Positions 7,929 to 24,706 of a stretch of DNA of 24,706 nucleotides are shown one piece after another. A program made the translations under genes and the position numbers. Below the pieces are notes generated by a model. It was not told where the DNA came from. It did not search any database and worked only from the letters and a program-made list of their open reading frames with translations. This DNA is from a virus. The stretch is from IMG/VR virus record IMGVR_UViG_3300027782_000347, positions 1-24,706 of that record; one strand, 5' to 3'. Positions within the stretch are counted from its first letter, which is position 1. Each line of letters starts with the position of its first letter.

Positions 7929-7929
7929 G

Positions 7930-9048: not shown

Positions 9049-9643
9049 CCTGACCTATGATTATGTTGTTTAATGCACCAACAATAGCCAAGTCAAGTTT
9101 ATGACCAAGAGTAGAAGCAACGCCAGTCTGGTCTACGGAAAGTTGATTTCCGTTACCACCAGATATATTAATGACGTTGTTGACACCAGCAACAGATGAC
9201 GTATTATTTGTCAGCGTTACTGTATTATTATCCGATTCAATTGTTAAAGCTGTATTGTTCAAGTTTTCGTTAGTGATAGTGACTAAGTTGCTACTACCTG
9301 TTATGGTCGTAGTAAAATTAGAAGCTGTACACGATTGACAATCTATATCAACTTGGTTTGTGTTACCAGTGATTGTTGACAATAGTGTGAAACCGTCACC
9401 AGTCATGTTAATTTTCTGACTGTTCTGATTACCTATCTGCGAAACTGTAACTGTGTTATTTGTGCCGCTGAACGAACTGCGCTCAGAAGGAGTTCCCAAA
9501 TTATTACCACTTCCTGTTTGCGTAATACCGATAACAGCACCGTCACCAATTTGATCCATATAGATACTGTTACTTGCCGCATGAGCATATTGAAACATAA
9601 CCAAGAATGTCATAAACGCGACTATTCTTGTTAATAGTTTCAT
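8969..9643 (-). CDS. Secreted curlin-repeat-like protein (candidate fibre subunit)
   Basis: A 224-residue protein with a signal peptide (about 1-22, cleavage after AHA). The mature region is Asn/Thr/Ser/Gly-rich and predicted beta, with curlin-type units IYMDQIGDGAVIGITQTGSG and VTVSQIGNQNSQKINMTG near the N-terminus. More degenerate NxVTI/NTVTL units follow, and LSVDQTGVAS near 165. It has a CxxC (CQSC, about residue 103) not found in E. coli CsgA. The ATG overlaps the CsgG stop as ATGA; its own 3' end overlaps the FecR gene by 80 bases. By position right after CsgG it is the best candidate for the exported amyloid subunit. Repeats diverge from the classic S-x5-Q-x-G-x-x-N-x-A-x3-Q pattern, so a non-amyloid adhesin remains possible. 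Confidence 0.75.
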   Translation of the reverse strand: MKLLTRIVAFMTFLVMFQYAHAASNSIYMDQIGDGAVIGITQTGSGNNLGTPSERSSFSGTNNTVTVSQIGNQNSQKINMTGDGFTLLSTITGNTNQVDIDCQSCTASNFTTTITGSSNLVTITNENLNNTALTIESDNNTVTLTNNTSSVAGVNNVINISGGNGNQLSVDQTGVASTLGHKLDLAIVGALNNIIIGQGGSTDSKVNSTINGSSNTITIKSNHQ

Positions 9644-10452
9644 TTTTTCTTCCCTTTCTTATAGCTCCAAACCTTTTTATTTACGCCTTCCTTTATCATA
9701 TCTACAACAGCCGCTTCTATCGCCACTCGGATAGCATAAGTCGTAGGTTCATTAATAGACGATCCTGCCTCAAATTCGAACGATTTAGTTCCTGCGTCAA
9801 TGAACTTCATGATATTCGTGTTGTATCCTGTGCTGTATATGGTTTTTGTCGCACCTGTGGATAGTAAAATTTCACCTGTGTTGACCGATATAAGTCTAAG
9901 CATGACTGTGACTTCATCTTTACGATACTGTTGATCAGCACCGACACCCAGAAAACGAGCTCCAATCCCGCCAGTCCCAATGTTACTATCGTACCCAACG
10001 ATTCCCCCATCGATCATTACTCCCGCGACTACGAGCGGAACAAGTGGTTTTGCTTGTTCTTTTTCGTATGTTTCTCTCTGCGAACGTATGAGTTGACGTT
10101 CTTTAACTAGATTCTCAAGACCAACACGTTCTACAGGAATAAACCATTTACCTTTACCTGCGTCCTGTAATGCCTTAATAAGAAAAACTTCACTTCCCTG
10201 AGTCACAGCAGAACTTAAACTGGCATAGTTATTATTAGGTTTACGTTGACCAGTCATATCTTGAAAACGATAAACAGCAACAGGAATAGGTTCTCCTGAT
10301 GGCAATTGAATCTCGGCTATTTCATTGAATCGCTGACGAGTGATAATTTCTGGAGCATCAATTTCTGATTCTACAGATTGCTGTGTAGTGAAATTTTTAC
10401 CAGAACAACCAGTCAACAATAGCGCGAGTGTAATTGCTATATACTTTACCAT
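9640..10452 (-). CDS. csgG: CsgG-like outer-membrane curli secretion pore lipoprotein
   Basis: A 270-residue lipoprotein (E. coli CsgG is 277). It starts MVKYIAITLALLLTGC, a lipobox with acylated Cys16. Family signatures follow: PVAVYRFQDMTGQRKPN, SSAVTQGSEVFLIKALQDAG, WFIPVERVGLENLVKERQLI and later EVTVMLRLISVNTGEILLSTGATKTIYS. In bacteria nine CsgG subunits form an outer-membrane channel that exports unfolded curlin subunits. The ATG overlaps the end of CsgF by 7 bases, and the stop overlaps the curlin-like gene by 4, so the pore and its likely cargo are translationally coupled. No obvious damage. A CsgE-like adaptor was not found in the window. Confidence 0.93.
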   Translation of the reverse strand: MVKYIAITLALLLTGCSGKNFTTQQSVESEIDAPEIITRQRFNEIAEIQLPSGEPIPVAVYRFQDMTGQRKPNNNYASLSSAVTQGSEVFLIKALQDAGKGKWFIPVERVGLENLVKERQLIRSQRETYEKEQAKPLVPLVVAGVMIDGGIVGYDSNIGTGGIGARFLGVGADQQYRKDEVTVMLRLISVNTGEILLSTGATKTIYSTGYNTNIMKFIDAGTKSFEFEAGSSINEPTTYAIRVAIEAAVVDMIKEGVNKKVWSYKKGKKK

Positions 10453-10889
10453 GCTAAACTCCCGTACGGAACCACGACTTCTGTAACGCTCCCTCCTGGA
10501 TCCGTAATAGTTAACGTGATATTAGTACCATCAGAAACCCATTGTAGATGATTACCACCTAGATCAAACTCACCCTGCGTAGCTCCACCAGACTTAAACA
10601 ATTCGGCAGCTATGTTCTGTGATATCGTAGCGTAGATACGGCTCTCAAGATTGTTTAGAAACTTAGCAAGATTGGTATTTTTAGCGTCTGACGCAATTTT
10701 AGCAGCTTCAGTTTTTCTATCATCTATAATCTTTTGTCTTCGAGTTGATTCTAGGTTCTCAATAGTGAGTACATGTGACGAGTAACCATTTCCGCTGAAT
10801 GCAGGGCTCTTGAATCCAAATTGTATTTCTGCTGCTAATACGTTACTGCTTAGGAGGATGCTCAATGCTATCAGCATGCATCTGTTCAT
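10446..10889 (-). CDS. csgF: CsgF-like curli assembly factor
   Basis: A 147-residue exported protein (E. coli CsgF is 138). The start is the ATG at 10887-10889, with a strong GAGGAG 8 bases upstream; an in-frame upstream extension to 10934 lies inside the previous gene and would bury the signal peptide. Signal peptide about 1-19 (cleavage after VLA). The mature N-terminus IQFGFKSPAFSGNGYSSH matches the CsgF segment (FQFRNPNFGGNP) that inserts into the CsgG channel and forms a second constriction. The remainder has a helical, Lys/Ala-rich middle and a beta C-terminal domain (LTITDPGGSVTEVVVP). CsgF immediately before CsgG supports an assembled CsgG:CsgF pore. Confidence 0.9.
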   Translation of the reverse strand: MNRCMLIALSILLSSNVLAAEIQFGFKSPAFSGNGYSSHVLTIENLESTRRQKIIDDRKTEAAKIASDAKNTNLAKFLNNLESRIYATISQNIAAELFKSGGATQGEFDLGGNHLQWVSDGTNITLTITDPGGSVTEVVVPYGSLAW

Positions 10890-11148
10890 ATTTCTGCTCC
10901 TCGATTTGTTGTCCTCGTAAAGTAAGAACAACATTAACCTTCTGATTCAAACGAATAAGGTCATTGTCTAGCATTCGAATACGATCAATCAGCGCAATCA
11001 GAACTGTGTTAGCTTCGGACAGTATAGGTTTGATTTCTTGAGTAGCCCATTTCCATACGTAGAATATGAGATATCCCATTCCACCAGCGGCGACGATAGG
11101 AAACCCATACTTGTTAATCATGTCTACTAGGTCATTGGGTCCAGTCAT
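10843..11148 (-). CDS. Small holin-like membrane protein, copy 2
   Basis: A 101-residue protein with one N-terminal membrane segment (about 13-34, YGFPIVAAGGMGYLIFYVWK) and a predicted coiled coil after it (about 38-75, with IALIDRIRMLDNDLIRLNQKV). It is a clear paralogue of the upstream gene: both share FPI, GY.x.F, K, then I.AL..R...M..D.IRI. The layout recalls small BhlA/UviB-type holin-like phage proteins, but I cannot confirm membership. The ATG overlaps the upstream stop (TAATG) and has AAGGAG; its 3' end overlaps CsgF by 47 bases. Possible roles are an inner-membrane hole or an inner-membrane partner of the CsgG pore. Existence as a gene is firm; function is not. Confidence 0.65.
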   Translation of the reverse strand: MTGPNDLVDMINKYGFPIVAAGGMGYLIFYVWKWATQEIKPILSEANTVLIALIDRIRMLDNDLIRLNQKVNVVLTLRGQQIEEQKYEQMHADSIEHPPKQ

Positions 11149-11445: not shown

Positions 11446-11452
11446 ATTTATT
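11445..11452 (-). promoter_or_regulatory. T4-type late promoter AATAAATA for the curli-like operon
   Basis: The minus strand reads AATAAATA (7 of 8 to TATAAATA), overlapping the stop codon of the upstream PP-loop gene, 18 bases before the ATG of the first holin-like gene. The eight genes from 11426 to 5602 follow without gaps large enough for another clear promoter. Confidence 0.65.
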
Positions 11453-12368
11453 ATTCTTTGCCTCTCAATAATTCATATTCCGCTTCTTTGGTTAAATTCC
11501 ATTGTACCAAAGTCTGATCTAGAGGAGGATTAAATTCTACTGTATCATACCATTCTATACATTGTTGTTTGGTAATAATTTTTCTTGGAGCAGGATTCCT
11601 GTTAGGAAATGCAACACCTTCTTTTTGAAATAGAGGTTGTTCGTTTTCTAAATAAATCCAATTGATTATATCCATATCTCGATTTCCGCCACCGTATTCT
11701 CTATTTTTTTCTTTTCTCCAGTTATCGAAATCATCAGCATTCCAACCTTTAGCGATAAGTCTTCTGACCACAATATCGCATACAGTTTTAGATTCTGGTC
11801 GTTTAGTATCTATAGATTCTGACAAATGTTCGGGCATATACTTTAGTACATGCCATCTAGTGAAATTTTGATGAATATCATGGGTCAGCAAAGGTTGCCA
11901 TATTTTACTTTTATCTATGATATTAGGAGTATGGTTATATTCTACCCTACAACGCAACATTCCTTGATATTCTTTTGCGGTTCGACAACCATAAATATAT
12001 GCGTCGTCTTGTTCGTAGGTGAGACCAGAAGCTATCCTATCATATTTTCCTTCATTTAAATCTTGTGCGAACAGATTGATGCTATAGTTATGCCAATGAT
12101 CATTAACGAATGATTGCACTTGTTCTTTTCGCGGAGTATGAACGATAACATTAAATTTTCTGTATTTGTGTAATTCTAGCATAGGTTCTATGACAGCAGG
12201 TAAATCGTAGTAATTTACGCCGCTACTTAATATATGTTCGTCGATTCCTCCACCTTTTAACAATACAACAAGAGTAACATCATCAGATGTATCTGCGAGT
12301 AGCTTATATGTTAGATAAACACTATCACGTCCACCACTAAATAAAACTAGAGTCTTTTTGTTCGACAT
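11451..12368 (-). CDS. PP-loop ATPase, QueC/adenine nucleotide alpha hydrolase-like (subfamily A, copy 1, no zinc motif)
   Basis: A 305-residue PP-loop ATPase: SGGRDS at residues 11-16 after the strand KKTLVLF binds the pyrophosphate of ATP. PP-loop enzymes activate a substrate by adenylation (QueC, TilS, asparagine synthase and others). It shares with two neighbouring genes the block KYDRIASGLTYE and the late motif WRKEKNREYGGG followed by WIYLE. It lacks the CGxCxxC cluster those two carry, so either the zinc site was lost or the role differs. The C-terminal about 70 residues (RKIITKQQCIEWYDTVEFNP onward) are longer than in the paralogues. It is separated from them by a divergent TctC gene and a terminator. 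Substrate unknown. Confidence 0.85.
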   Translation of the reverse strand: MSNKKTLVLFSGGRDSVYLTYKLLADTSDDVTLVVLLKGGGIDEHILSSGVNYYDLPAVIEPMLELHKYRKFNVIVHTPRKEQVQSFVNDHWHNYSINLFAQDLNEGKYDRIASGLTYEQDDAYIYGCRTAKEYQGMLRCRVEYNHTPNIIDKSKIWQPLLTHDIHQNFTRWHVLKYMPEHLSESIDTKRPESKTVCDIVVRRLIAKGWNADDFDNWRKEKNREYGGGNRDMDIINWIYLENEQPLFQKEGVAFPNRNPAPRKIITKQQCIEWYDTVEFNPPLDQTLVQWNLTKEAEYELLRGKE

Positions 12369-12397: not shown

Positions 12398-13384
12398 GTG
12401 TTCAAAATGATATTGATGATACTATTGTGCCTAATTAATACTAGCGTTTTAGCAAACGATTTTTACAAAGGCAAAGAACTAAAAATTATTATTGCTTCTA
12501 TCATCAGCCCTACTATGAGTTTTGAACTTAATACTAGGATCATGGGTAAGTATATAGTCAGGTATATTCCAGGTAATCCTTCGGTCGTGTTTAAGAATGT
12601 TCCTGCTGCGGCGGGTATTGCTGGAACAAACATGATAGCAAACGAATCGGTTCAGGATGGCACAACTATCGTGTTCCCTATAACAAGTGTGGCTATCAGG
12701 GGTGTTATGAAAGACTCTCCCGAAATTCAATACGATTCTAATACTTTAAATTGGATTGGTGCTGTTAGTAACGGCACAGATGATCCACAATTACTTTTTA
12801 TTAGAAAAGACGTAGAACTGCTACCTGATTTTAGTAATATGTTATATGGCGATACTTCTTCAACGAAAACTATGGAACCTGGACCTGTTCTCAAAAATAT
12901 CTTAGGATATAAACCACAACTCATATATGGATATAAGACCAAACAAGAAATAGAATTGGCTATGCAACGAAAAGAAGTCAATTCATATACAACAGCTCTT
13001 AGTCTATTGAAACAATCGAACTACGATATCGTAAATGAATTTGCTAGACCGGTTATTCAATACGGTTCTAATAAGAGAAATTCTTTGTTTCCTGATGTAC
13101 CTACATTACATGAATTCGCGAAAACTCAAGAACAATTAGATTTTGTAGAATTCACTCAGTTTACATATTACATGACAAAAAGTGCAGCAGTAGGTCAAAA
13201 TGTGCCTAAAGATAGAGTAGCAATTCTAAGAAAAGCATTCGTAGACGTTTGTAACGACCCAGAATATCTAGAAGAAATGAAAGAAAAATTATTACCTGTT
13301 AGCTGTGTAGAAGGCAGTAAAGTGCAGGAAATCGTTCGAAATAATACAGAAAGACATGAAAGAATTAAACATTTGATAAAATAA
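12398..13384 (+). CDS. TctC-family periplasmic solute-binding protein
   Basis: Extracytoplasmic substrate-binding protein of the tripartite tricarboxylate transporter (TTT/Bug) type, 328 residues, and the only plus-strand gene. The GTG at 12398-12400 is chosen because AGGAG lies 7 bases upstream; an ATG at 12407 is too far from it. Signal peptide about 1-19 (cleavage after VLA). NDFYKGKELKIII, then YIPGNPSVVFKNVPAAAGIAG and DGTTIVFP, match the family consensus (FYKGKTIKIVV, HIPGNPTIVVQNMPGAGG). The usual Gly-rich pocket loop after the first strand is replaced by ISPTMSFELNTRI, which may change the ligand. No membrane subunits are present, so it would have to feed a host transporter. Acquired from a bacterium, by inference. 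Confidence 0.86.
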   Translation: MFKMILMILLCLINTSVLANDFYKGKELKIIIASIISPTMSFELNTRIMGKYIVRYIPGNPSVVFKNVPAAAGIAGTNMIANESVQDGTTIVFPITSVAIRGVMKDSPEIQYDSNTLNWIGAVSNGTDDPQLLFIRKDVELLPDFSNMLYGDTSSTKTMEPGPVLKNILGYKPQLIYGYKTKQEIELAMQRKEVNSYTTALSLLKQSNYDIVNEFARPVIQYGSNKRNSLFPDVPTLHEFAKTQEQLDFVEFTQFTYYMTKSAAVGQNVPKDRVAILRKAFVDVCNDPEYLEEMKEKLLPVSCVEGSKVQEIVRNNTERHERIKHLIK

Positions 13385-13408
13385 GAATAGGCGCCTGCGC
13401 CTATTCTT
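13383..13408. terminator. Bidirectional intrinsic terminator
   Basis: AAGAATAGGCGC (13383-13394) and GCGCCTATTCTT (13397-13408) are perfect 12-base inverted arms around a 2-base centre. T-rich stretches follow on both strands (CTTTT on plus, TTATTTTATC on minus). It sits between the converging ends of the TctC gene and a PP-loop gene, whose TAG stop lies inside the stem. It should stop transcription from both sides. Confidence 0.88.
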
Positions 13409-14267
13409 TTGGTTGAAATATACCTTCCCATATACCATATGTCAGTTTATCAGCATTAGTAAACAAAGGGTGGTTTCTAATATTTACTGCAACGCTAGGT
13501 ATAACATTTCCATCTAATCCCATTTCTTTTCTAATCCAAAATAAAAGCGGAGCCATCAGACCATTTTCGCCATATTCAATAGACTTTTGCTTTTTCCATT
13601 GCAAAATTTCTTCTGGAGTTTTACCAGCGGATAACATATCAGAAGACAATTTGTTTTCTAAACATTTCCTACAATGACCACAATCTACGTAATTTTCAAT
13701 ATCGTTGTTATACTCTGGCGAATCGCAAGAAGCTACTACGTTCTTTATGTTAGTTGGTAGGTCTTTCATTGCGAAAGCTCTGTTATAGTTTTGATAAAAC
13801 ACATCACCTTTTAACAATGGTTCCCACAATTCACCTCTAGTACATAGTCTGTTGAATAGTCTATCTACGACATAGTATGTTGGGAAGTAATCCAAGTGAG
13901 GTAGAATTTTACAAGAAACGTCTTCATAAGAAGCGCCATGAACAACTCTATCATATGTGCCGTTATTAACGAATGGTGCTACATACTGCACAAACTGTAA
14001 ATACTTAAGATACGTTTCTTCAGTGATATCAGACGGCTTTATCTTATATGAAATAAATTCAAAATTACGAATCTTACGCAGTTCGTCTACGACTTTTTGC
14101 GCTCTAATGTATTGAACATATTCTTTTATCGTTCCGATATCTGTAATAACAAATTGGCTGTCCAAATAAACAGCTGTAACTTCGTCATCCGTTTCTGTAA
14201 GCAATTTCCACAAAATGAATGTAGAATCCCATCCACCAGAGAATGCGAGTACTGTTTTTTTCGTCAT
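13401..14267 (-). CDS. PP-loop ATPase, QueC-like with zinc motif (subfamily A, copy 2)
   Basis: A 288-residue PP-loop ATPase with SGGWDS at residues 10-15 following KKTVLAF. Four cysteines (Cys181, Cys196, Cys199, Cys202; CGHCRKC) form a QueC-type zinc site, and WKKQKSIEYGENG follows it. It aligns along its full length with the copy at 14990-15859 (shared ILWKLL.ETDDEVTA.YL, AAPF-like VAPFVNNGTYDR, SYED, LFN.LC.RGE.WEPL). The ATG has AAGG 8 bases upstream, inside the short gap after copy B1. QueC itself makes 7-cyano-7-deazaguanine, but no QueD, QueE, FolE or transglycosylase gene is in this window, so that product is not implied. It ends inside the terminator stem. Confidence 0.87.
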   Translation of the reverse strand: MTKKTVLAFSGGWDSTFILWKLLTETDDEVTAVYLDSQFVITDIGTIKEYVQYIRAQKVVDELRKIRNFEFISYKIKPSDITEETYLKYLQFVQYVAPFVNNGTYDRVVHGASYEDVSCKILPHLDYFPTYYVVDRLFNRLCTRGELWEPLLKGDVFYQNYNRAFAMKDLPTNIKNVVASCDSPEYNNDIENYVDCGHCRKCLENKLSSDMLSAGKTPEEILQWKKQKSIEYGENGLMAPLLFWIRKEMGLDGNVIPSVAVNIRNHPLFTNADKLTYGIWEGIFQPKE

Positions 14268-14280
14268 CTGTTAAACCTTC

Positions 14281-14964
14281 TTACAGCCATAAATTTATGA
14301 ATTGTTTGTATGTACCTCGTACATTCATACCAAAATTTATCGTACCAAAAACATCATCTGTAGAAACCCATTCACTATATTCATTTCTAGCTGCTTTTTT
14401 AATAATAGATAATTGTTTTTGTCTAATATCTTCGATTGTAGAACCAGAATTTTCCATAATCACTGAAGGTTGATAAAACGCATTAGTAGTACACAATGCA
14501 AGTAATTCAACTGGTAATTCTTTAGTGACTTGGTAATTGATTTTATTACTTTCTCGTATAGGATACGATACGTTCACCGTATCTTTTATTTTGTTGATAG
14601 CATTTCTAATATAATTGTGTGTCAATAGTTCATCTTTGAAATCGTCATTAAACACAACATTATCAATAGCATTGTCTTTAGCATAATTCACAATTTCTAG
14701 TGCAGGAAAACCAGAATATTTGGGATCATAGTTATCTAAAGTCAAAACAATAAACTGTATTGGCCTGATGTTCGCAGAAACCCAATTAGCTATCGCCTCA
14801 GCTGTTGATTTAACACCTTTTGGTTCTGCGTCTTTCTGATAATTGTTTACATAATAGTCGATATCTACGAAAATCGCAACGATTTCGTCTGATGTGTCTT
14901 TAGCTAGTTGCCATAGATTGTATGCGCTGCCATATCCGCCGCTAAGTGAAACTGCTGTTTTCAT
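14281..14964 (-). CDS. PP-loop-like protein with altered loop SGGYGS (subfamily B, copy 1)
   Basis: A 227-residue protein starting MKTAVSLSGGYGSAYNLW. The PP-loop signature SGGxDS is present except that Gly replaces Asp, at residues 8-13. It shares with the copy at 16401-17132 IFVDIDYY/VFVDIEYF, LDNYDP.YSG.P.LEI.NYA and V.FNDD.KD. It has no zinc cysteine cluster and is shorter than subfamily A. The start is supported by GAGGAA 6 bases upstream, and a perfect late promoter word lies 23 bases before the ATG. It may bind nucleotide without normal ATP-pyrophosphatase chemistry, or act as a partner of a subfamily A enzyme. Function unknown. Confidence 0.82.
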   Translation of the reverse strand: MKTAVSLSGGYGSAYNLWQLAKDTSDEIVAIFVDIDYYVNNYQKDAEPKGVKSTAEAIANWVSANIRPIQFIVLTLDNYDPKYSGFPALEIVNYAKDNAIDNVVFNDDFKDELLTHNYIRNAINKIKDTVNVSYPIRESNKINYQVTKELPVELLALCTTNAFYQPSVIMENSGSTIEDIRQKQLSIIKKAARNEYSEWVSTDDVFGTINFGMNVRGTYKQFINLWL

Positions 14965-14986: not shown

Positions 14987-14994
14987 TATTTATA
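14987..14994 (-). promoter_or_regulatory. T4-type late promoter TATAAATA for PP-loop genes B1 and A2
   Basis: A perfect TATAAATA on the minus strand, overlapping the end of the upstream PP-loop gene (14990) and 22 bases before the ATG at 14964. It would drive the last two genes of the cluster up to the terminator at 13383-13408. Confidence 0.75.
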
Positions 14995-15859
14995 CGGATT
15001 TTGGATTAAGAATACCTTTCCATATACCAACATCAGGTAAACCTTTTAGATTAAAATGACCAGTTTTTGCGAAATCTGACATAACTTGTTCTTTAGTTTT
15101 AGTTATACCTATGCCGGTTTCGAAATAGATCCATTCTTGTGGGGTGAGCATGAATTTTCCTCCACCATACTCGTACGCTTTCGTTTCTCTCCAATCTGTG
15201 ATTTCGTCAGGAGTCATTCCTTGAGAAAGCAGTTCAGTATACTTACGTTTCATGTTACACTTATAGCATTTTCCACACTCTACAAATTCATCAGAAATAA
15301 CATCAATTTGCGGAGAACTGCATCCAGTAGTCATTTCTATGATGTGTGTTGGTAGTTCTAATAGAGCATGAGACCTATTATATCTTGGATGCCAATCTCC
15401 ATGCACTAGCGGTTCCCAATATTCGCCTCGATTACACAGTTTATTGAAAAGATTGTGAGCTGCGTAATAGAGAGGCGTGTACTCTAAGTGTTCGACGACT
15501 TTCTGGTGTTTGTCTTCATAACTACCACCTGCCGCGATTCTATCATAAGTTCCGTTGTTTATGAATGGAGCAGCATATTGTATAATTATCAACGCTTTAT
15601 TATTGATTTGTTCGCTGATATCAGTGTTTTTCACATTATACTTTATGTATTTAAAATCGCGAATTTTTCTCAATTCTTCCGCGAGAATCAAAGAACGTTG
15701 ATATTGGATAGGAGATTTGTCAGCATAAATTTGACTATGGTAATGCTCTTCTCCTAGATACATCGCAGTGACTTCATCATCCGTTTCGTGAAGAAGTTTC
15801 CATAGTATGTAAGTAGAATCTACACCGCCAGAATAAGGCACAAGAGTTTTTGTTGGCAT
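14990..15859 (-). CDS. PP-loop ATPase, QueC-like with zinc motif (subfamily A, copy 3)
   Basis: A 289-residue PP-loop ATPase with SGGVDS at residues 10-15, a complete canonical signature. Cys180, Cys195, Cys198 and Cys201 (CGKCYKC) form a QueC-type zinc site, followed by WRETKAYEYGGG and WIYFETG. It is clearly homologous to copies 1 and 2 and closest to copy 2. The ATG shares a base with the stop of the hydroxylase gene (TAATG), so the two are probably co-translated. The exact substrate is not evident; family options include QueC-like nucleobase chemistry, RNA thiolation or lysidine-type chemistry, and amide or peptide bond formation. Confidence 0.88.
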   Translation of the reverse strand: MPTKTLVPYSGGVDSTYILWKLLHETDDEVTAMYLGEEHYHSQIYADKSPIQYQRSLILAEELRKIRDFKYIKYNVKNTDISEQINNKALIIIQYAAPFINNGTYDRIAAGGSYEDKHQKVVEHLEYTPLYYAAHNLFNKLCNRGEYWEPLVHGDWHPRYNRSHALLELPTHIIEMTTGCSSPQIDVISDEFVECGKCYKCNMKRKYTELLSQGMTPDEITDWRETKAYEYGGGKFMLTPQEWIYFETGIGITKTKEQVMSDFAKTGHFNLKGLPDVGIWKGILNPKSV

Positions 15860-16404
15860 TATCTAAACTGAGGTCCATGAAACCAGTTGACGAGTGAATA
15901 TCTTGTTCCTTTGGTTACAGGAACAACTCGATGTTTAATGAAAGAAGGGAACACGATAATAGAACCTCTCGCGCGAGTATCTGGTCGTGTGCTGTTTTCG
16001 AATTCAAAATATCCTTCTTCGTAATCATTTGGATCTGTAATCGTTATCACTATACTTAGCTTACGATAATCGTTATCACCTACTCTTGCCGAATCTTCAT
16101 GAAACTCGTAGAATCCACCTGGTTCGTACACAGTAAATTGAGCTTCTTCACAACCAACAAGCTCGTAGTTCCATGCTTGTTTATTAGCTAAATTTACATA
16201 ATGACTAGTTAATCCGCATACCCATGAATCTGATGGAAACCATGAAGTCTTAGATATTCTGATAGATTCATCGGTTCTTTTTTCTTCATGATAACCTACG
16301 ATAGCTTCCTCCATAGGCAATTTCATTCCTTCATCAATAATAGCTTGGCAAACAGATCCTGGTAGTATAGAATCCCATTTCCAATACATTGGATCAACTA
16401 TCAT
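15859..16404 (-). CDS. 2-oxoglutarate/Fe(II)-dependent hydroxylase (prolyl hydroxylase-like)
   Basis: A 181-residue dioxygenase of the PKHD/prolyl-hydroxylase fold. The ATG at 16402-16404 overlaps the upstream stop as ATGA and has GGAAGG nearby; a GTG at 16419 would add only 5 residues. Iron ligands are His102 and Asp104 (FHEDS) and His158 (FIKHRVVPV); Arg168 and Ser170 (GTRYSL) bind 2-oxoglutarate. The spacing and the flanking YEPGGFYEFHED, RKLSIVITI and GSIIVFPSF are textbook. Such enzymes hydroxylate proline or other residues using O2, releasing succinate and CO2. They are frequent in marine T4-like phages, with targets largely unknown. Here it sits between PP-loop genes in one operon, about 1.5 kb from a Gly-Asn-Pro-Gly-rich adhesin. 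Confidence 0.92.
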   Translation of the reverse strand: MIVDPMYWKWDSILPGSVCQAIIDEGMKLPMEEAIVGYHEEKRTDESIRISKTSWFPSDSWVCGLTSHYVNLANKQAWNYELVGCEEAQFTVYEPGGFYEFHEDSARVGDNDYRKLSIVITITDPNDYEEGYFEFENSTRPDTRARGSIIVFPSFIKHRVVPVTKGTRYSLVNWFHGPQFR

Positions 16405-17132
16405 ACCTTTTCCTTCCACAGCTTAATATATTGTGGGTATTGATACATCAATTCTTTCGCAAAAATGATTTCACCAAAATCCTTATCTGTATCAGCAATC
16501 CATACTTTATTTTTTTTAGGGTCTGTATGATTTGTTAGCACAGCATTTTTGGCCACAGTGATTTGTTTTTCTACAATTTGTTGTTCCACAAAACCTTGAT
16601 TTTCTAACAACACAGATATATCGGCTATTTTGTTTGTTACACATAATTGTTTTAATTCTGATGGTAATAGTTTAGAACATTGAAAATTTGTTAAACCATT
16701 TTCTATCAGTGGATACTCAACGATAACGTAGTTACCTTTCAGGCGATTATTTACTTTTCGTAATAATACTTGATCAGGGACAACATCTTTTATGTCATCA
16801 TTGAATATGACTTTATCGTATTCTTTTATTCTAGCATAATTTATGATTTCTAATTGAGGAATACCTGAATATTGTGGATCATAGTTGTCTAGATCTAACG
16901 AAACGAATTTTATTTTTCTGACGTTTCTATTAATCCAATTCACTATTTGATTAAATGCAAAAATATCACCTCTTTTTGATAAGTGTGTTCCTGTTGGGCA
17001 AGGCATTACGTTTGAATTAAAATACTCAATATCTACAAACACAGCTAGTATTTCATCGTGAGTAGATTTAGCTAAATTCCATAAGTTGTAAGCACTACCA
17101 TAACCACCAGTCAAAGAAACGACTGTTTTCAT
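16401..17132 (-). CDS. PP-loop-like protein with altered loop TGGYGS (subfamily B, copy 2)
   Basis: A 243-residue paralogue of the gene at 14281-14964. I start it at the ATG 17130-17132, which overlaps the upstream stop as ATGA and gives MKTVVSLTGGYGSAYNLW, matching its paralogue; a TTG at 17144 is less likely. The loop TGGYGS replaces both Ser with Thr and Asp with Gly of SGGxDS. Shared blocks are AVFVDIEYF, LDLDNYDPQYSG, LEIINYA and VIFNDDIKD. The two copies are quite diverged, suggesting an old duplication or separate acquisition, yet both keep the Gly. No zinc cysteines. Function unknown. Confidence 0.82.
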   Translation of the reverse strand: MKTVVSLTGGYGSAYNLWNLAKSTHDEILAVFVDIEYFNSNVMPCPTGTHLSKRGDIFAFNQIVNWINRNVRKIKFVSLDLDNYDPQYSGIPQLEIINYARIKEYDKVIFNDDIKDVVPDQVLLRKVNNRLKGNYVIVEYPLIENGLTNFQCSKLLPSELKQLCVTNKIADISVLLENQGFVEQQIVEKQITVAKNAVLTNHTDPKKNKVWIADTDKDFGEIIFAKELMYQYPQYIKLWKEKV

Positions 17133-17833
17133 TTCTTTTCCCAAAATTTGTCTCTATACAAACTAGCCCACGAAGATCTCATGCTCTGCTCGTGTCTCAA
17201 CTTATCTATATCATTCTTATTCATTGTTCTAACAACAGCTGTCTTATCAAAATTACGTTTGAATGGAATCACTTGCATTAGCGGATGCCCACGATTCATA
17301 GTAAATGTGCCTTCTCTTGCTTTTAAAAATCCTGGAAAATTGACATATTCTTGATGTTTGTCTGTTTCAACGATACCACTCATAAGTTCTATAGTATCAT
17401 CAGGTCTATTCAATGGCATAGTGAACAAACACGACCATCCAGGAGGAGTTCGTATGAGCCAATGATTGATAAACTTGAGAGGGATTGTAGGGTAATTAGG
17501 ATGGGTTGATAATTGTTTGATGCTATGATGTTCTATTATATTTCCATGAAAAAAATCAGTTTTCCACGAAACACCGCGACCATTATCAACAACTTTAAAT
17601 GTAACATCTGCTGCTAGAGGGATAATCCAACCAGTAGACATAGCGTCTAGGAATGGAGGACAACGCTTGAGCGTTGGCATTTCCATTCCTTCATCATTTT
17701 CGGTAAAGTTAGTTAATTTTTTATACCAGTCTGGAATCAGTTTGCGCGCAGGATAAGGTTCTGGTATGACATTCTTACCCTTTACTTCTTCACAAATAAA
17801 CTCAATCTTACACTCTTTCTCAGTAAACCACAT
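17129..17833 (-). CDS. Conserved phage protein, probably DUF6065-like
   Basis: A 234-residue soluble protein, function unknown. Motifs are PARKLIPDWYKKL, TLKRCPPFLDAMSTGWIIPL, VSWKTDFFHG, HWLIRTPPGWSCLFTMPLNR, GIVETDKHQEYVNFPGFL and, near the end, VIPFKR. I recognise this block order from uncharacterised proteins in marine T4-like phages and believe it is the family called DUF6065, but cannot check. The many conserved Trp, Pro and Gly residues suggest a compact beta-rich fold. It is the first gene of the PP-loop/hydroxylase cluster and overlaps the next gene by 4 bases, which ties it to that pathway. No promoter word is visible in the 20 bases before it. Confidence 0.75.
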   Translation of the reverse strand: MWFTEKECKIEFICEEVKGKNVIPEPYPARKLIPDWYKKLTNFTENDEGMEMPTLKRCPPFLDAMSTGWIIPLAADVTFKVVDNGRGVSWKTDFFHGNIIEHHSIKQLSTHPNYPTIPLKFINHWLIRTPPGWSCLFTMPLNRPDDTIELMSGIVETDKHQEYVNFPGFLKAREGTFTMNRGHPLMQVIPFKRNFDKTAVVRTMNKNDIDKLRHEQSMRSSWASLYRDKFWEKK

Positions 17834-17853
17834 AAAATCATCTCACAAGTTAA

Positions 17854-20598
17854 TTATTGAAGATCATAAGCAACTGTTACGCTAGTTCCTGGAGCAACTG
17901 TTACGGTATATGTAGTCAGAGAAGGAGTGGTTGAATTTTGTGTTGAGTTTGTAGTTGTGCCGCCTGCATTACCTGGATTACCAGAAGTTGCTCCTGTTCC
18001 CGCAGTTCCCGCAGTTCCCGCAGTGAATCCAGTTCCGGCAGTTCCAGCAGTTCCGTTAGTTCCGGCTATTCCTAGATTAGCAGTTCCCGCAGTTCCCGCA
18101 TTCCCTGAACCAGAACCAGCAGTTGCTCCAGTTCCATTAGTTCCAGCAACACCAGCATTTCCAACACCACCTGCTGTTCCTGTGTTTCCTGCTATTCCTG
18201 ATGTTCCTAAATTTCTTGTTCCAGCAGTGCCAGCAATTCCTGCTGTGCCTATTCCACCAGCAGTAGCACCTGTTCCGGCAGAGCCTGGGTTTCCTGCGCC
18301 ACCAATAGTTCCTGCAGTTCCTGCTGTGCCAGGTGTTCCAGCAGTTGCTCCAGTTCCAGATGTTCCTGGAAATCCTCCAGTTCCACCATAACTAGCTCCT
18401 TGAGTACCAGCAGCTCCTGCTGTACCAGCATTACCTGGCGTTCCATCAGTCGCGCCAAAACCAAATGAACCGCCAGCTCCAGGACTTCCGCCACCACCAC
18501 TGCCACCAGGACTACCTCCTCCGCCGCCACCGCCGCCATAAGGTCCGGTACCAGGATTACCGGGATATGAAGCGATGGCTGGGCCGCCTCCGCCGCCACC
18601 ACCGCCAGAACCAGCAGCTCCAGGTAAACCGGAAGTTCCTGTATTACCTGCTAAACCACCAATACCAGCATTTCCGCGAACACCGTTGTTTCCTGCATTA
18701 CCTGCTGCGCCTGTTGATCCAGCTATTCCATTGGTTCCGGGATTTCCAGGATTTCCGGCAGAGCCTCCTGGTCCCCTATTACCTGCATTGCCCGGATTTC
18801 CAGCTGTGCCGCCTGGTCCACCTGTTCCTTGATTACCAGCAGCTCCTGCTGTACCGGCTATTCCGTTTGTTCCAGGATTACCAGCATTAGCAGTTCCGCC
18901 TATGCCGTTTGTACCAGCGTTTCCGACGCCGCCAGCCGTGCCACCAGTTCCAGCAATACCTGGATTTCCTGGGTTTCCTGCGGCTCCTCCTGGACCAGCA
19001 TTTCCAGGATTACCAGCAGTAGCAGTTCCAGCTATTCCATTGGTTCCAGGATTGCCTGGATTTCCTGCAGTTCCTGCTGCGCCATTGGTTCCTGGATTTC
19101 CTGCAGTTCCAGCTAATCCAGCAGTTCCCGCATTACCCGCAGCTCCTCCTGAGAATGTAGCATTAAAAGGTGTTCCTATAACAGAAGTTGCATTTCCTGC
19201 AGTTCCTGGATTTCCTGCAGTTCCCGCAATTCCAGAAGTACCTAGCGTTGCGCCAGTTCCTGCTGCTCCTGCAGTTCCCGCATTACCTGAGGTTGCTCCT
19301 GTTCCGTTAGTTCCAGCAATACCTGGATTACCAGCTCCACCAGCTCCACCTGAAGTTCCTGCTATTCCTGATGTACCTGGATTAGCTGTTCCTGCGGTTC
19401 CAGCAGCTCCAGGATTACCTGAAGTTGCGCCTGTTCCGTTAGTTCCCGCGATACCTATAGTACCTGAAGTTGCGCCTGTTCCTGCTGCTCCTGCTGTTCC
19501 TGCAGCTCCAAAACCGCCGGCAGTTCCTGTATTACCTGCTGCACCAGGATTACCAGCACCTCCTGGGTTTCCTAGATTACCAGCAGCGCCTGCTCCTCCG
19601 CTAGTTGCGCCAAAACCGTTAGTTCCAGCAGTTCCGATAACACCAGCATTAGCTCCGGTTCCATTATTACCAATAGTACCTGGGTTTCCGGCAATGCCGG
19701 CGTTTCCTGCATTTCCTGCTGTTCCACCTTGGCCTGTACCGCCAGATCCTCCACTATTTCCGTATGCGATGTTGTATGATTTTCCAGCTGGAATAGCGAA
19801 AATGCTTGATCCACCAGATCCGCCTGGATAACCTCCCGCATAAGAAGCTCCAGGATTTCCTTCACCACCGTAGTAAAAAGCATAAGATTTTCCTGAGGAG
19901 TACCAACCAGATGGGCCGCCAGCGTTTCCTCCGCCTCCACCGGCGCCACCAGTTCCTTGACCACCGGCGCCACCATAAACACCAGGATTACCTGGGTTAC
20001 CGGGATTTCCAGGATTTCCAGCTGTGCCGCCTGGTCCGCCTACCCCAGTATTTCCCGGATTTCCTTCAGTACCAGCAGCACCATTGGTACCAGCATTACC
20101 TACACCTCCAGCAGTTCCACCAGTTCCACCTGTTCCTGTATTACCTACACCACCGGCTGTTCCGTTAGTCCCAGGATTTCCATTAGTCCCAGCATTACCT
20201 GCCGAACCCGCAAGTCCTGCGATACCAGGATTTCCAGGATTTCCAGCTGTGCCGCCTGGTCCACCTGTTCCTTGATTACCAGCATTAGCAGTTCCGCCTA
20301 TGCCGTTGGTTCCAGGATTTCCTGCGCCACCAGCTGTACCACCAGTTCCCGCGATACCCGGATTTCCTGCAGTTCCAGCTAATCCAGCAGTTCCTGCCGC
20401 ACCATTAGTGCCAGGATTTCCAGCTGTTCCGGCGACACCATTAGTGCCCGGATTTCCAGGATTTCCAGCTGTTCCATCACCGCCTCGACCAGTCACACTA
20501 ACTGTACGAACTCCGTAAGGGACAGTGTATGTCCCTGGAGCATTGAAAGTAGTAGAACCAGCCGGAATTAAGCTTTTGATGAACAGAGCTAAAGGCAT
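17854..20598 (-). CDS. Giant collagen-like Gly-X-X repeat protein, likely tail adhesin
   Basis: 914 residues, mostly three-residue units such as GNP, GTN, GTA, GAA and GIA. The N-terminal cap (about 1-38, TFNAPGTYTVPYGVRTVSV) and C-terminal cap (about 890-914, TTYTVTVAPGTSVTVAYDLQ) are beta-like and resemble glycine-rich domains of phage tail adhesins. Three non-repetitive aromatic or Gly-rich inserts break the repeat at about 228-285, 470-487 and 665-722. Gly-rich segments alternating with variable loops recall gp38-type adhesins of T4-like phages, where polyglycine II helices pack into a sandwich. It may instead form a collagen triple helix. Its GC is higher than that of neighbours because of glycine codons. 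It lies among tail-fibre genes, which supports host recognition. Internal DNA duplications are present. Confidence 0.82.
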   Translation of the reverse strand: MPLALFIKSLIPAGSTTFNAPGTYTVPYGVRTVSVTGRGGDGTAGNPGNPGTNGVAGTAGNPGTNGAAGTAGLAGTAGNPGIAGTGGTAGGAGNPGTNGIGGTANAGNQGTGGPGGTAGNPGNPGIAGLAGSAGNAGTNGNPGTNGTAGGVGNTGTGGTGGTAGGVGNAGTNGAAGTEGNPGNTGVGGPGGTAGNPGNPGNPGNPGVYGGAGGQGTGGAGGGGGNAGGPSGWYSSGKSYAFYYGGEGNPGASYAGGYPGGSGGSSIFAIPAGKSYNIAYGNSGGSGGTGQGGTAGNAGNAGIAGNPGTIGNNGTGANAGVIGTAGTNGFGATSGGAGAAGNLGNPGGAGNPGAAGNTGTAGGFGAAGTAGAAGTGATSGTIGIAGTNGTGATSGNPGAAGTAGTANPGTSGIAGTSGGAGGAGNPGIAGTNGTGATSGNAGTAGAAGTGATLGTSGIAGTAGNPGTAGNATSVIGTPFNATFSGGAAGNAGTAGLAGTAGNPGTNGAAGTAGNPGNPGTNGIAGTATAGNPGNAGPGGAAGNPGNPGIAGTGGTAGGVGNAGTNGIGGTANAGNPGTNGIAGTAGAAGNQGTGGPGGTAGNPGNAGNRGPGGSAGNPGNPGTNGIAGSTGAAGNAGNNGVRGNAGIGGLAGNTGTSGLPGAAGSGGGGGGGGPAIASYPGNPGTGPYGGGGGGGGSPGGSGGGGSPGAGGSFGFGATDGTPGNAGTAGAAGTQGASYGGTGGFPGTSGTGATAGTPGTAGTAGTIGGAGNPGSAGTGATAGGIGTAGIAGTAGTRNLGTSGIAGNTGTAGGVGNAGVAGTNGTGATAGSGSGNAGTAGTANLGIAGTNGTAGTAGTGFTAGTAGTAGTGATSGNPGNAGGTTTNSTQNSTTPSLTTYTVTVAPGTSVTVAYDLQ
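18794..18840 (-). repeat. 47-base direct repeat inside the glycine-rich gene, copy 1
   Basis: By eye identical over 47 bases to 20237-20283 in the same gene. The two copies are about 1.4 kb apart and in the same frame, so they encode the same peptide (ending GTGGPGGTAGNP). Exact identity beyond what the amino-acid repeat requires points to recent duplication or recombination. Confidence 0.85.
20237..20283 (-). repeat. 47-base direct repeat inside the glycine-rich gene, copy 2
   Basis: Partner of 18794-18840. It overlaps a second exact 34-base repeat (20274-20307) whose other copy is at 18876-18909, so the two repeat pairs are nested but spaced differently. This indicates an insertion or deletion between them in one copy. 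Confidence 0.85.
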
Positions 20599-20614: not shown

Positions 20615-20953
20615 TTAGCTAATTTTAACAGCTTTTGCAAGAAAATCACTTGGTAAATCAGCACTCTTAACTGCATATTTTCTTTTAGAAGCGATAACAG
20701 ATTTGTCATCTGATTCCCAATAGATTTCATCATATGTAAACACAGGCATTTCAGCGAATTGAACTTTTCCGCCGTTGCCGTCTTCGAACCAAGTGCTTAA
20801 TGCAGCTAAACAAGGAGAAACAGCATCTTCCGTGAATTCCACATCTCTAAAAGCAATGCTATTATCTATCAAATATTTCTTAAAGTCAGCAGAAGCTTTG
20901 TGTCCGAACTGAGAATGAAAGAAAAGATTATCATACTTGATTGGGGTAGCCAT
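20615..20953 (-). CDS. Hypothetical protein, possibly thioredoxin/glutaredoxin-like fold
   Basis: A 112-residue soluble protein, not recognised. The order strand (YDNLFFHS), helix (ASADFKKYLIDNS), strand (AFRDVEFTED), then FAEMPVFTYDEIYWESDD with a possible cis-Pro position, resembles a glutaredoxin scaffold, but no CxxC active site is present. A catalytic redox role is therefore unlikely. The ATG has AGAGGA upstream. Placed between the tail fibre and the glycine-rich adhesin genes, it could be a fibre chaperone or assembly factor, by position only. Confidence 0.6.
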   Translation of the reverse strand: MATPIKYDNLFFHSQFGHKASADFKKYLIDNSIAFRDVEFTEDAVSPCLAALSTWFEDGNGGKVQFAEMPVFTYDEIYWESDDKSVIASKRKYAVKSADLPSDFLAKAVKIS

Positions 20954-20980: not shown

Positions 20981-22261
20981 TTACGCTTCGTAGAAGCCCA
21001 TTGAAACGTACCATCTTGTATCGCCATCAAATTTCATACACTGATAAATCGTTACTTTATTAGCTCCGGTCTGATTAGCCGGTTGTGTTGCTGAATTATT
21101 ATACACAATCGTTTCACCAGATGGAGGAGCAAGAGTAACGACATAAGTACCAGTCGCATTTTCTTTAAGAACAATAATGATATTCTTAACGGAAGTGGAC
21201 TGATTAGGCATACCGGCGGGCAAAGTAAGAGTTGCCGTGCCTGTTACTGTATAGCGCACTACGTTAGAATTTGTAGGAACAGTAACAGAACCAGTAAGAT
21301 TCGTATATGCAGTAGCATTTTCTGTATAGTTTACGAGCTTATTTCCCGCGAGCGCGATGTTGCCGTTTGCGACAGTTACACCACCAGCAGTAACAGTAGC
21401 GCCACCAGCTGTTACGGTCAATCCACCAGAAGAAACAGTAAGAGTCGTGACAGAAGGCGAAGTTGCTAATACTAAACTTCCTGTGCCTGTTACTGTATTC
21501 GCTAATGTAACGCCGCCGTATCTAATGGTAGAACTGAATACAGGACTTGCGATTATAGGGCTTCCATCAAATACAAACTTACCAGTTCCTGTAGCACCAG
21601 TAGCAGTGACGCCTTCAATAGTCGGATGACCAGTAATAGTTGGTGCCGCAGAAAGCACCATACTACCAGTTCCGGTGACAGTATTTGCTAGTGTAACACC
21701 ACCGTATCTAAGAGTAGTTCCTAGTACAACAGCACCTGAAAATACTGCACCAGATAATAGTGCATAATTTGATAGAGCGGGTAGAGCATCCCAGTATACG
21801 TTTGTTCCGTTTGTGCGAAGGAAATATCCCGCAGTACCTAACGAACTGTTAGCTCTAAGTCCAGCAACAGTAACGGATCCAGTAAAAGTAGGAGAAGCAG
21901 AAAGCACAAGACTTCCTGTACCCGTAACGGTATTCGCTAATGTTACTCCACCGTATCTTAATGTTCCTGTTAAGATAGGTGAATCTTTAAGAACTAGACC
22001 ACCTGTACCTGTAGCAGTATTAGCTAACGTGACACCACCATATCTAATGGTAGAACCAAACACCGCAGCACCAGTCTGTAGCATAGTAGTTTGATGAGTA
22101 ACTGCACCTTTCGAAGTAAATGCTACGTTAGCAGTTATTGTGTTCGCATACAATGAAGCTTCGTTAATCGCAAACTGATTTAGTCGCGTGAAACCAATAT
22201 TCGTGCGAGTACGCCACGTTTCAAACGTATTAGTAAGGGCGACGTTAGCGATTACAGCCAT
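20981..22261 (-). CDS. Tail fibre-like structural protein with RYGGVTLANT repeats
   Basis: 426 residues. The N-terminal part (TFETWRTRTNIGFTRLNQFA) is typical of virion fibre attachment regions. Four copies of RYGGVTLANTVTGTGSLVL begin near residues 73, 102, 185 and 248, with variable spacers between them. The related phrase NTVTGTGSLVL..SPT is widespread in phage fibres. A short valine/threonine/glycine beta stretch (about 272-300) leads to a C-terminal domain (about 305-426) with VKNIIIVLKENATGTYVVTLAPP and YQCMKFDGDTRWYVSMG, probably the tip or trimerisation domain. Likely a trimeric beta fibre. The ATG lies 3 bases after the preceding stop, with AGGA upstream. Confidence 0.82.
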   Translation of the reverse strand: MAVIANVALTNTFETWRTRTNIGFTRLNQFAINEASLYANTITANVAFTSKGAVTHQTTMLQTGAAVFGSTIRYGGVTLANTATGTGGLVLKDSPILTGTLRYGGVTLANTVTGTGSLVLSASPTFTGSVTVAGLRANSSLGTAGYFLRTNGTNVYWDALPALSNYALLSGAVFSGAVVLGTTLRYGGVTLANTVTGTGSMVLSAAPTITGHPTIEGVTATGATGTGKFVFDGSPIIASPVFSSTIRYGGVTLANTVTGTGSLVLATSPSVTTLTVSSGGLTVTAGGATVTAGGVTVANGNIALAGNKLVNYTENATAYTNLTGSVTVPTNSNVVRYTVTGTATLTLPAGMPNQSTSVKNIIIVLKENATGTYVVTLAPPSGETIVYNNSATQPANQTGANKVTIYQCMKFDGDTRWYVSMGFYEA

Positions 22262-22482: not shown

Positions 22483-24706
22483 TTACCTCTGTAATGCGAT
22501 TGCTCTAAGCTCGCGCACGCGAGGAGGATTTGATGAAGTTTCGTTGACAAGAACAACCTTGACGGCGAAATACTTAAATCCTACAAATCTAGCACGATTA
22601 CTATTACGATATTCTACGATGCTCGAATTGGTTGTATTAGCGCCAGCACGAGCAGTATCAGTGTATCCTGGGATCTTATACGTCATTTCGAAGAAATCTT
22701 CACGATTTTCGCTGCTTGAGTAACGAGTTTCGCTAGTGAATCCTTCACTTGTATCACGATCCATTGGGTGCCATTTAGCATCACCAAATGCGTCGCTATC
22801 TTCTGCATTAAGAACCTTATAGTACACTAGAACGTTAGAGTTTATAGGCTTATAAGCAGATAGATACACACGAAGGTCTTCTGCGTCCTGGCCATCAGCC
22901 AGAGTTACAGTTCTCGTAATATATTTAACTTTAGCATCACCACCACTAGAAACATGGTCTTCTGTAGACTGAATATTTGTGTTAGAATTAATTAAATTAT
23001 GATTTCCAACAAGAGAAATTCGTTTCAAGTCGATAGCAGGTGAAGCTACGATATTACGACATTCTAGCTCAAACTTAATTGTTGCCGAGTTTGAAGTAAG
23101 CGTAGAAGATTCGGTTGTATAGCTATAGATATAACGAGGCGAAGTAAATTCTGTAGAACCATTAAGATTCAATTTCATATAATCGGCTACAACTGATGGT
23201 GCTGTTGCTAACTTACCATACGCAGTAATTGTTGTATTTGATGGTAAGATCGTAGAAGCGTAAACAGTAGCATCATCCATTACAATAGAATCAATTGAAC
23301 TAATTGTAGCTGTGTAGCCGTTAGTTTGACCACGAAGCGCCATTCCAGAAGTAAAATTCTTTCCTGTTGTAATAGAAGTAGTGTTGATGTATGAGCTGTT
23401 AGATAAATACAGTTTAGTATCAGTATAATTCGCAGCATCACGCATAGATACTTTACCTACAGGTGTAACAGCAGAAATAATAATTCCTGTAGAGTTACCT
23501 ACGATAGTTCCAGTAGAAGCACTATATCCACCAGTACCAACATTAGTTCTAATACGAATACGTTCATTAGCTTGGAACTTATTGTCGAGTGTTACGTTTT
23601 TAACTCTGATCTGTGAAGATGAGAACGAAGTGATAACACCCTTAGCGAGTGAAGTCATTCCCTGAACATACGAAGCACCGTTCGAGAACACAGTTTTCGT
23701 ATTAGCGAATGTGCCACGAATAGTCGTTTCCCCATACACTAGTTCGCCAATACGATTCAGCGGACCAGATTCATCGGAAATCGTAAATATGTCGCGATTT
23801 TCGTTCTTAACGATCAAGTTACCAACTGCACTTCTATCAAACTCAGCATAGTAGGCGGTGAATTTCAGATCTTCGTTCTGAATAGTTTCCCACTTTCTTT
23901 CGTTTGACGAAATATGCAATTCACCAGCAGCAGGTTGAGAAGTTACTCGAGAACCTGTGAGTATATCTTCTTCGCCAAGAACAGCTGTATATACAGCATA
24001 GTTTGGATTATTAGCACCAGGCGCAACAACAACCGAATACTGAGCATTTTCGTTCAGATACACCGGAGATTCAAAATATATCGGCGTTGCTAATGAACCA
24101 TCATCACTCACGTTGATTTGTGATGATGGAACATTCACACGACTGAAAGGAATAATCTTAGAAGTTATTACACCAGAAGCAGGATCTACTTCTTGCAACT
24201 GAACAGTAATGCCTTGAGTTTCGTCTTTCTGAGAAAAGTATAGATCAACCTTAGTCAGATAAACACCAGAGGTTGATACCTTTGTAGAAAGTAGTCCTGC
24301 AACAATAAATGTTTGCGCTAAAGGATCGCTGCTTTCAGGTCTCACCCAGCCTCTTTTACCAAGAACAAATCCTTGTAAACTATCAATATTCAAACATCTA
24401 TTAGTTTTACCTGTTCTTCCAAAAATTTCTATTCCAATTAGGCAACCGTTGCCATCAACCGGCGGTGGCGGCGGTGGAGGTGGAGGTGGAGGTGGTGGAG
24501 GAGGCACATAACCACAAGAAGGTGAATTGGATTGTGTGAGCACAGTTTCATAAGGACCGCCGTTAGCGGTGGTTAAGATAGTCATTCTATCATAACCCTC
24601 ACAATAAGTCGTAATCACAATACCAGCTGGAGGAGCAGGTGGTGGAGGCGGCGGCGGCGGCGGCGGCGGTGGAGGCGGTGGAGGCGGTGGAGGCGGCGGC
24701 GGCGGT
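22483..24706 (-). CDS. Large virion structural protein with polyproline tracts (partial, N-terminus outside window)
   Basis: The reading frame stays open to the window edge, so about 741 codons of a longer protein are seen. A GTG at 24618 looks like a start but lies in the middle of the open frame. The block DPLAQTF, then SGVYLTKVDLYFSQKDE, IPFSRVNV, SPVYLNENAQYSVVV, LGEEDILTGSRV and LKFTAYYAEF, is typical of large tail or baseplate-associated proteins of marine T4-like phages. Beta-rich, Ser/Thr/Asn-rich repeats follow, and a C-terminal domain (ISLVGNHNLI, VYLSAYKPINSNVLVYYKVL, FVGFKYFAVKVVLV, RVRELRAIALQR). Two proline tracts separated by about 40 residues containing Cys-x-x-Gly act as rigid spacers near the visible N-terminus. 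Confidence 0.8.
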   Translation of the reverse strand, partial: PPPPPPPPPPPPPPPPPPPPPPPAPPAGIVITTYCEGYDRMTILTTANGGPYETVLTQSNSPSCGYVPPPPPPPPPPPPPPPVDGNGCLIGIEIFGRTGKTNRCLNIDSLQGFVLGKRGWVRPESSDPLAQTFIVAGLLSTKVSTSGVYLTKVDLYFSQKDETQGITVQLQEVDPASGVITSKIIPFSRVNVPSSQINVSDDGSLATPIYFESPVYLNENAQYSVVVAPGANNPNYAVYTAVLGEEDILTGSRVTSQPAAGELHISSNERKWETIQNEDLKFTAYYAEFDRSAVGNLIVKNENRDIFTISDESGPLNRIGELVYGETTIRGTFANTKTVFSNGASYVQGMTSLAKGVITSFSSSQIRVKNVTLDNKFQANERIRIRTNVGTGGYSASTGTIVGNSTGIIISAVTPVGKVSMRDAANYTDTKLYLSNSSYINTTSITTGKNFTSGMALRGQTNGYTATISSIDSIVMDDATVYASTILPSNTTITAYGKLATAPSVVADYMKLNLNGSTEFTSPRYIYSYTTESSTLTSNSATIKFELECRNIVASPAIDLKRISLVGNHNLINSNTNIQSTEDHVSSGGDAKVKYITRTVTLADGQDAEDLRVYLSAYKPINSNVLVYYKVLNAEDSDAFGDAKWHPMDRDTSEGFTSETRYSSSENREDFFEMTYKIPGYTDTARAGANTTNSSIVEYRNSNRARFVGFKYFAVKVVLVNETSSNPPRVRELRAIALQR
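24460..24504 (-). repeat. Polyproline tract of 15 codons
   Basis: Fifteen consecutive proline codons, mixing CCG, CCA and CCT. The mixture argues for selection for proline, not a simple slipped trinucleotide. Runs of this length usually need EF-P to be translated. Confidence 0.95.
24628..24705 (-). repeat. Polyproline tract of at least 25 prolines, running out of the window
   Basis: Twenty-six codons, all proline except one alanine (24634-24636), continuing to the window edge. Pure GGC-type runs are present (24649-24669), so slippage variation is likely. It is part of the same gene as the tract at 24460-24504. Confidence 0.9.

Follow-up and report, generated by a model that had tools for sequence, protein, structure and literature searches.

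We analysed a 24.7-kb virus record (IMG/VR record IMGVR_UViG_3300027782_000347, positions 1 to 24,706; this whole stretch of 24,706 nucleotides is called the window below), which comes from an uncultured T4-like marine phage and carries on its minus strand the genes of a putative protein hydroxylase and of a glycine-rich Gly-X-Y protein that may be its substrate. The terminase of the window shared about 55% identity with the terminases of cyanophages, pelagiphages and the Methylophilales phage Melnitz, and a direct DNA similarity search of the window against phage records gave no match. The minus-strand order is a polyproline tail protein, a fibre-like protein, a 112-aa protein, the Gly-X-Y protein, a DUF6065 protein, a PP-loop protein and the hydroxylase, followed by four more PP-loop genes (interspersed with a single plus-strand TctC-like gene), a curli island, neck genes, the terminase and the tail sheath. 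Compared with S-RSM4 and Mosig, this order fits the host-recognition region of T4-like phages, in which variable genes lie between the tail fibres and gp13-gp14. The slot between tail fibre and neck in pelagimyophages has been described as a hypervariable host-recognition region (PMC7029224), and arrays of 2-oxoglutarate (2OG) oxygenases occupy it in cultured relatives.

The hydroxylase (15859..16419, minus strand) was assigned to the 2OG-Fe(II) hydroxylases of PKHD/prolyl 4-hydroxylase (P4H) type based on its matches to PF13640 (E = 1.3e-13, 52.1 bits, cut-off 27) and PHROG 61 "2OG-Fe(II) oxygenase" (phrog_61, E = 7e-35), its PiuC and P4H relatives and its conserved ligands. Translation probably starts at the ATG at 16404 and not at the GTG at 16419, judging from a comparison with the closest relative (locus L097, "MIVDDPLYWKW"). 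The original prediction had credited the enzyme with complete iron and 2OG ligands, and the homologues bore this out: the HxD...H iron triad (H107, D109, H163) was identical in all 132 non-redundant hydroxylase homologues, and R173, the basic 2OG-binding residue, was kept in 131 of them. Because the ligands are invariant in homologues, the window enzyme is probably an active 2OG oxygenase that likely acts on protein. In the tree it stood beside the L097 sequence (support 0.999), inside a group of nine block-associated sequences (0.95), with weak deeper nodes.

A single-sequence search of solved structures placed the window hydroxylase closest to the PKHD hydroxylase PiuC, and a seven-sequence profile matched PKHD enzymes, a viral P4H, a Pseudomonas enzyme and the P4Hs of Bacillus anthracis and Chlamydomonas. 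PiuC/YbiX (PDB 9ghl, 9qn0-9qn4, 3dkq), the best sequence match, has the same HxD...H triad and Arg at the 2OG site, where both proteins carry the motif "H.v.PVt.G.Ry...W", but the match covers only the C-terminal half, and PiuC is chromosomal, iron-related and not fibre-linked. The B. anthracis P4H (PDB 3itq, 5hv0) was matched by the profile across nearly the whole domain (E = 2e-8), but it is chromosomal, and Lys at the 2OG site is a feature of the collagen P4H group, whereas the window family has Arg. Filing the window enzyme as a collagen prolyl 4-hydroxylase was rejected because R173 replaces this Lys.

The Gly-X-Y protein (17854..20598, minus strand) is a GNP-rich collagen-like protein of 914 aa, which we regard as a probable fibre-tip adhesin and as the proposed substrate, based on its Pfam Collagen match (PF01391, E = 1.1e-19), its triplet statistics and weak PHROG matches to "collagen like minor tail" and "tail fiber". 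It contains 329 Gly, 34 NPG and 49 Pro-Gly, and the Gly-Asn-Pro-Gly repeats described in the original prediction were counted 33 times. The longest uninterrupted Gly-X-X run had 41 triplets, compared with at most 12 in 500 composition-preserving shuffles, and 186 triplets fell in runs of at least 8. Among these 186 triplets, Pro was found 33 times at Y and only 6 times at X (3%). The protein has the uninterrupted Gly-X-Y repeats of collagen-like proteins but lacks the Pro-rich X position typical of collagens. Charged residues were nearly absent (13/914, about 1%), including only 3 Lys. At its two ends lie beta-strand motifs ("TFN..GTY.VP.GV..V.V.G.G" and "Y.VTV..G.SVT..Y") that are also present in Gly-X-Y orthologues. 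An AlphaFold model of an orthologue (431 aa, 5 sequences) was uninformative (pLDDT 34).

Based on its position, its composition and the weak PHROG matches, the Gly-X-Y protein is probably a receptor-binding fibre-tip adhesin of the virion. Its composition and terminal strand motifs fit the polyglycine II adhesin type represented by gp38 of Salmonella phage S16 (PDB 6F45), a comparison for which the pLDDT 34 fold model was too poor. S16 gp38 is a fibre-tip adhesin rich in glycine motifs and with variable loops, but its description gives ten short glycine-rich motifs in a 73-residue domain rather than hundreds of GNP-type triplets and does not mention a hydroxylase (PMC6851490). Collagen-type stabilisation of the window protein by hydroxylation is possible but is not favoured, because Pro is rare at X and charge is nearly absent, and both features also fit a polyglycine II bundle.

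Searches that started from hydroxylase relatives, gp13 and DUF6065 brought out one gene order that recurs in uncultured phages, namely 112-aa-type protein, Gly-X-Y protein, DUF6065 and hydroxylase; the co-occurrence counts rest on the best 80 hits. The members in the window are the 112-aa protein (20615..20953, minus strand), recognised by its conserved position in relatives directly upstream of the Gly-X-Y gene, and the DUF6065 protein (17129..17833, minus strand; PF19541, E = 5.9e-11; phrog_7084, E = 4e-49). Of the 34 Gly-X-Y/DUF6065 loci with enough sequence to hold it, 28 had a 112-aa-type homologue immediately upstream of the Gly-X-Y gene. After removal of near-duplicates, 37 viral DUF6065 loci had enough flank on either side: 25 had the Gly-X-Y protein and the hydroxylase, 8 had the hydroxylase alone, 4 had neither and none had the Gly-X-Y protein alone; the two Gly-X-Y loci without hydroxylase ended within about 1 kb. 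The DUF6065 query alignment came from known blocks, so the DUF6065-anchored counts, which are the strongest, are inflated and not fully independent. The block was seen with overlapping gene ends and also in contigs without nearby T4-type neck genes (L012, L017). We did not find a description of it in the open-licence literature.

The 8 loci that pair DUF6065 with the hydroxylase without a Gly-X-Y neighbour could mean that the substrate is not the adhesin but DUF6065 itself, another tail protein such as the polyproline protein, or a host protein such as EF-Tu, which is the target of a Pseudomonas prolyl hydroxylase (PMC4543633). We consider this unlikely, since hydroxylases without DUF6065 were still near Gly-rich genes (32/66, compared with 38/840 for unrelated genes), and cellular DUF6065 loci had neither hydroxylase nor Gly-X-Y neighbours. 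The polyproline protein (22483..24705, minus strand; phrog_358, E = 9e-81) is a tail/baseplate protein that is incomplete at the contig end; its frame begins with 23 Pro in a row and contains another Pro run, and the start of the gene is missing because the contig ends inside the first run. The polyproline noted in the original prediction is therefore present, but nothing specific beyond these runs spoke for this protein as a substrate.

To measure adjacency, each hydroxylase was set against other genes drawn at random from its own locus (within-locus permutation), and a Gly-rich gene within 2 kb upstream was scored; the loci were split by how they had been found because DUF6065-anchored loci are not fully independent. 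The pooled analysis (2000 permutations) showed an upstream Gly-rich gene in 45 of 79 loci (null mean 13.8, max 25). The hydroxylase-anchored set had 32/51 (null mean 15.5, max 23), the loci L003-L011 from eight isolates and one single-cell genome had 5/9 (null mean 0.6, max 4), and the DUF6065-anchored set had 31/38 (null mean 9.1, max 19). Co-occurrence, which the original prediction had proposed as a check, was thus found within the limits given above, both in the DUF6065 loci (25/37) and in the hydroxylase-anchored set (32/51). Only the gp13-anchored (T4-neck) set, with 3/20 (null mean 1.4, max 5), gave no significant adjacency; part of the reason is that many of its hydroxylases lie on the opposite strand. 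When Gly-X-Y proteins were scored specifically, the DUF6065-anchored set was the only clear one (25/38, compared with 7.7 expected; hydroxylase-anchored 6/51, compared with 2.2), and therefore the general partner is a Gly-rich protein, and Gly-X-Y proteins are a subset tied to DUF6065. The unrestricted presence table of the gp13 set (both 12, hydroxylase only 15, neither 10, Gly-X-Y only 0) was given little weight because hydroxylase-negative contigs were shorter.

The pairing was also present in cultured phages: the hydroxylase has a Gly-rich protein just upstream in Mosig, S-RSM4, S-SM1, P-RSM4 and HTVC033P, with tail-fibre genes annotated nearby. The cyanophage and pelagiphage 2OG-Fe(II) oxygenases of PHROG 61 belong to the same family and sit in the same fibre-neck slot (PMC3037559, PMC7029224), but the nine loci L003-L011 have Gly-rich fibre-type proteins and no Gly-X-Y neighbour. 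It could be argued that all this is passenger linkage, in which fibre and accessory genes are swapped together without any enzyme-substrate tie and the oxygenase works in 2OG turnover, DNA repair or metabolism. The region is indeed a known hypervariable island (PMC7029224), an effect on 2OG levels or a role in DNA repair has been suggested for cyanophage 2OG oxygenases (PMC3037559), and the gp13-anchored result agrees with such linkage. But proximity by chance was rejected in three of the four sets by the permutation, which controls for region and phage type. The recurring block also has overlapping gene ends and is found away from T4-type neck genes, and the catalytic ligands are invariant, which makes passenger linkage improbable.

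The position of proline separated the block proteins from other phage Gly-X-Y proteins. The 30 non-redundant block proteins (3918 triplets) had 77 Pro at X and 575 at Y, which means 88% of triplet Pro at Y, whereas 34 other phage Gly-X-Y proteins (1806 triplets) had 431 at X and 186 at Y (30% at Y). A review describes prokaryotic collagens as preferring Pro at X and Thr at Y, and it puts X-Pro in collagens at about 19-31% (PMC8968730). The Y bias of the block members fits the substrate of an X-Pro-Gly hydroxylase, as judged from sequence. The original prediction had suggested collagen P4H-type chemistry, and the part of it that placed Pro directly before Gly held across the block, but the enzyme itself is nearer to PKHD/PiuC, with Arg and not Lys.

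It is also conceivable, though rather doubtful, that the enzyme acts on the Gly-rich adhesin at another residue, such as Asn, Asp, Lys or a Pro outside Gly-X-Y (for example in loops), maybe before glycosylation. The partner is conserved across the family as Gly-rich and not as Gly-X-Y, most block proteins have Asn at X more often than any other residue, and to our knowledge PKHD-type enzymes are not established prolyl hydroxylases. In phage S-SCSM1 (L003:11968-14385) a GDP-fucose protein O-fucosyltransferase is annotated after a hydroxylase homologue, together with another 2OG oxygenase; this may be a hydroxylation-glycosylation pair. Against modification of another residue stands the Pro-at-Y bias of the block, which is what an X-Pro-Gly hydroxylase would favour.

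Taken together, we propose that the locus would be a fibre-modification block within the hypervariable host-recognition region of a T4-like marine phage, with the hydroxylase as a dedicated modifier of the Gly-rich adhesin, and we give this reading a probability of about 50%. The Gly-X-Y protein would be the receptor-binding fibre-tip protein, the co-made PKHD/P4H-type hydroxylase would most likely hydroxylate it during assembly, the favoured site would be the Pro of Asn-Pro-Gly (the Y position), and the added hydroxyls may change surface hydration, stability or recognition. Prolyl hydroxylation of the adhesin by this enzyme, proposed here from sequence, is likely. The wider proposal, that hydroxylase and DUF6065 form a widespread phage module converting Pro of a Gly-X-Y receptor-binding protein to hydroxyproline, as a counterpart of collagen maturation in host recognition, is more tentative, and we put it at somewhat less than even odds.

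Several points weigh against the fibre-modification block or against its literal reading as collagen hydroxylation. PKHD/PiuC is a nearer relative of the enzyme than collagen P4H. Two genes of the window (PP-loop, 16401-17144, and DUF6065, 17129-17833) separate the hydroxylase from the Gly-X-Y gene, so that "next to", as the original prediction had it, is right for strand and block but not for immediate neighbourhood. Adjacency was not significant in the gp13 set, the strongest counts are those inflated by the DUF6065 query, and most Gly-rich partners in the wider hydroxylase family are not Gly-X-Y. Gly-rich partners without Gly-X-Y showed no Pro-Gly enrichment (27% of Pro before Gly, compared with 33% expected), and therefore there is no single proline rule for the whole hydroxylase family. 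The Y bias could also be structural, Asn-Pro-Gly being a good turn former, and a triple helix is so far unsupported by the X-Pro fraction, the charge and the failed orthologue model.

There is precedent for the enzyme family, for collagen-like proteins of phages and for hydroxylation of collagen by viruses. Mimivirus, as reviewed, hydroxylates its own collagen and is likewise a virus encoding a collagen-like protein plus a 2OG enzyme that modifies it (PMC8968730), but its hydroxylase/glycosyltransferase is a lysyl hydroxylase of a giant eukaryotic virus, whereas the window Gly-X-Y protein is Lys-poor (3/914). The B. anthracis P4H, as reviewed, hydroxylates collagen-model peptides in vitro with Y favoured (PMC8968730). 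Marine phages are rich in 2OG oxygenases, for which the published guesses at targets are 2OG turnover or DNA repair (PMC3037559), and the steady pairing with Gly-rich fibre-type proteins, present in the cultured isolates named above, offers a concrete and testable substrate. Should the proposal hold, phages would commonly use post-translationally modified adhesins as one layer of host recognition.

Further Gly-X-Y proteins were seen outside the window. A contig without DUF6065 encodes a 1077-aa protein with a 19-triplet Gly-X-Y run (L028:2328-6101), whose end lies a single base ahead of a hydroxylase homologue; Pro in this protein is mainly at X (24, compared with 7 at Y). In many relatives a second, highly charged Gly-X-Y protein (charge at about 50% of X/Y) lies past the portal gene, about 8-9 kb downstream of gp13 (for example L092:9413-10528, L095:9515-11074 and L103:10335-12046). 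The model of DUF6065 (pLDDT 70.8) gave only weak dUTPase-like PDB matches (TM by query length 0.34, no E < 0.001), too weak for it to be claimed as a dUTPase, and ribonucleotide reductase is encoded near a DUF6065 gene in halophage HF1.

The hydroxylase is flanked by five paralogous PP-loop genes, all on the minus strand and identified by alignment with each other, of which two have a degenerate SGGxDS motif. The gene inserted between DUF6065 and hydroxylase (16401..17144; QueC-like, degenerate ATP motif) has no counterpart at this position in L097. Immediately downstream of the hydroxylase lies a QueC-like protein (14990..15859; phrog_1550, E = 3.6e-8), followed by a paralogue with a degenerate ATP motif (14281..14964), another QueC-like paralogue (13401..14267; phrog_1550, E = 1.2e-7) and the last one (11451..12368; phrog_1550, E = 1e-3). 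PP-loop homologues were near hydroxylases in L097, L107, L128, L146, L157 (four) and L179 (three), and tblastn of two of the window proteins in phage records gave no match. The PP-loop genes possibly provide a second protein- or nucleotide-modifying activity. The TctC-like solute-binding protein inside this cluster (12398-13384, plus strand) was below the Pfam cut-off. The fibre-like 426-aa repeat protein (20981..22261, minus strand), which matched no Pfam family, is probably a tail-fibre protein based on position and repeats. The curli island (5602-10934, minus strand) encodes CsgF, CsgG, FecR, a curlin-repeat protein and a CHASE2-adenylate cyclase in the same order as in phage Melnitz. Although csgA/csgB were reported missing in Melnitz (PMC9004378), an 88-aa protein of the window (7662-7928) passed the Pfam Curlin_rpt cut-off and is a candidate curlin subunit.

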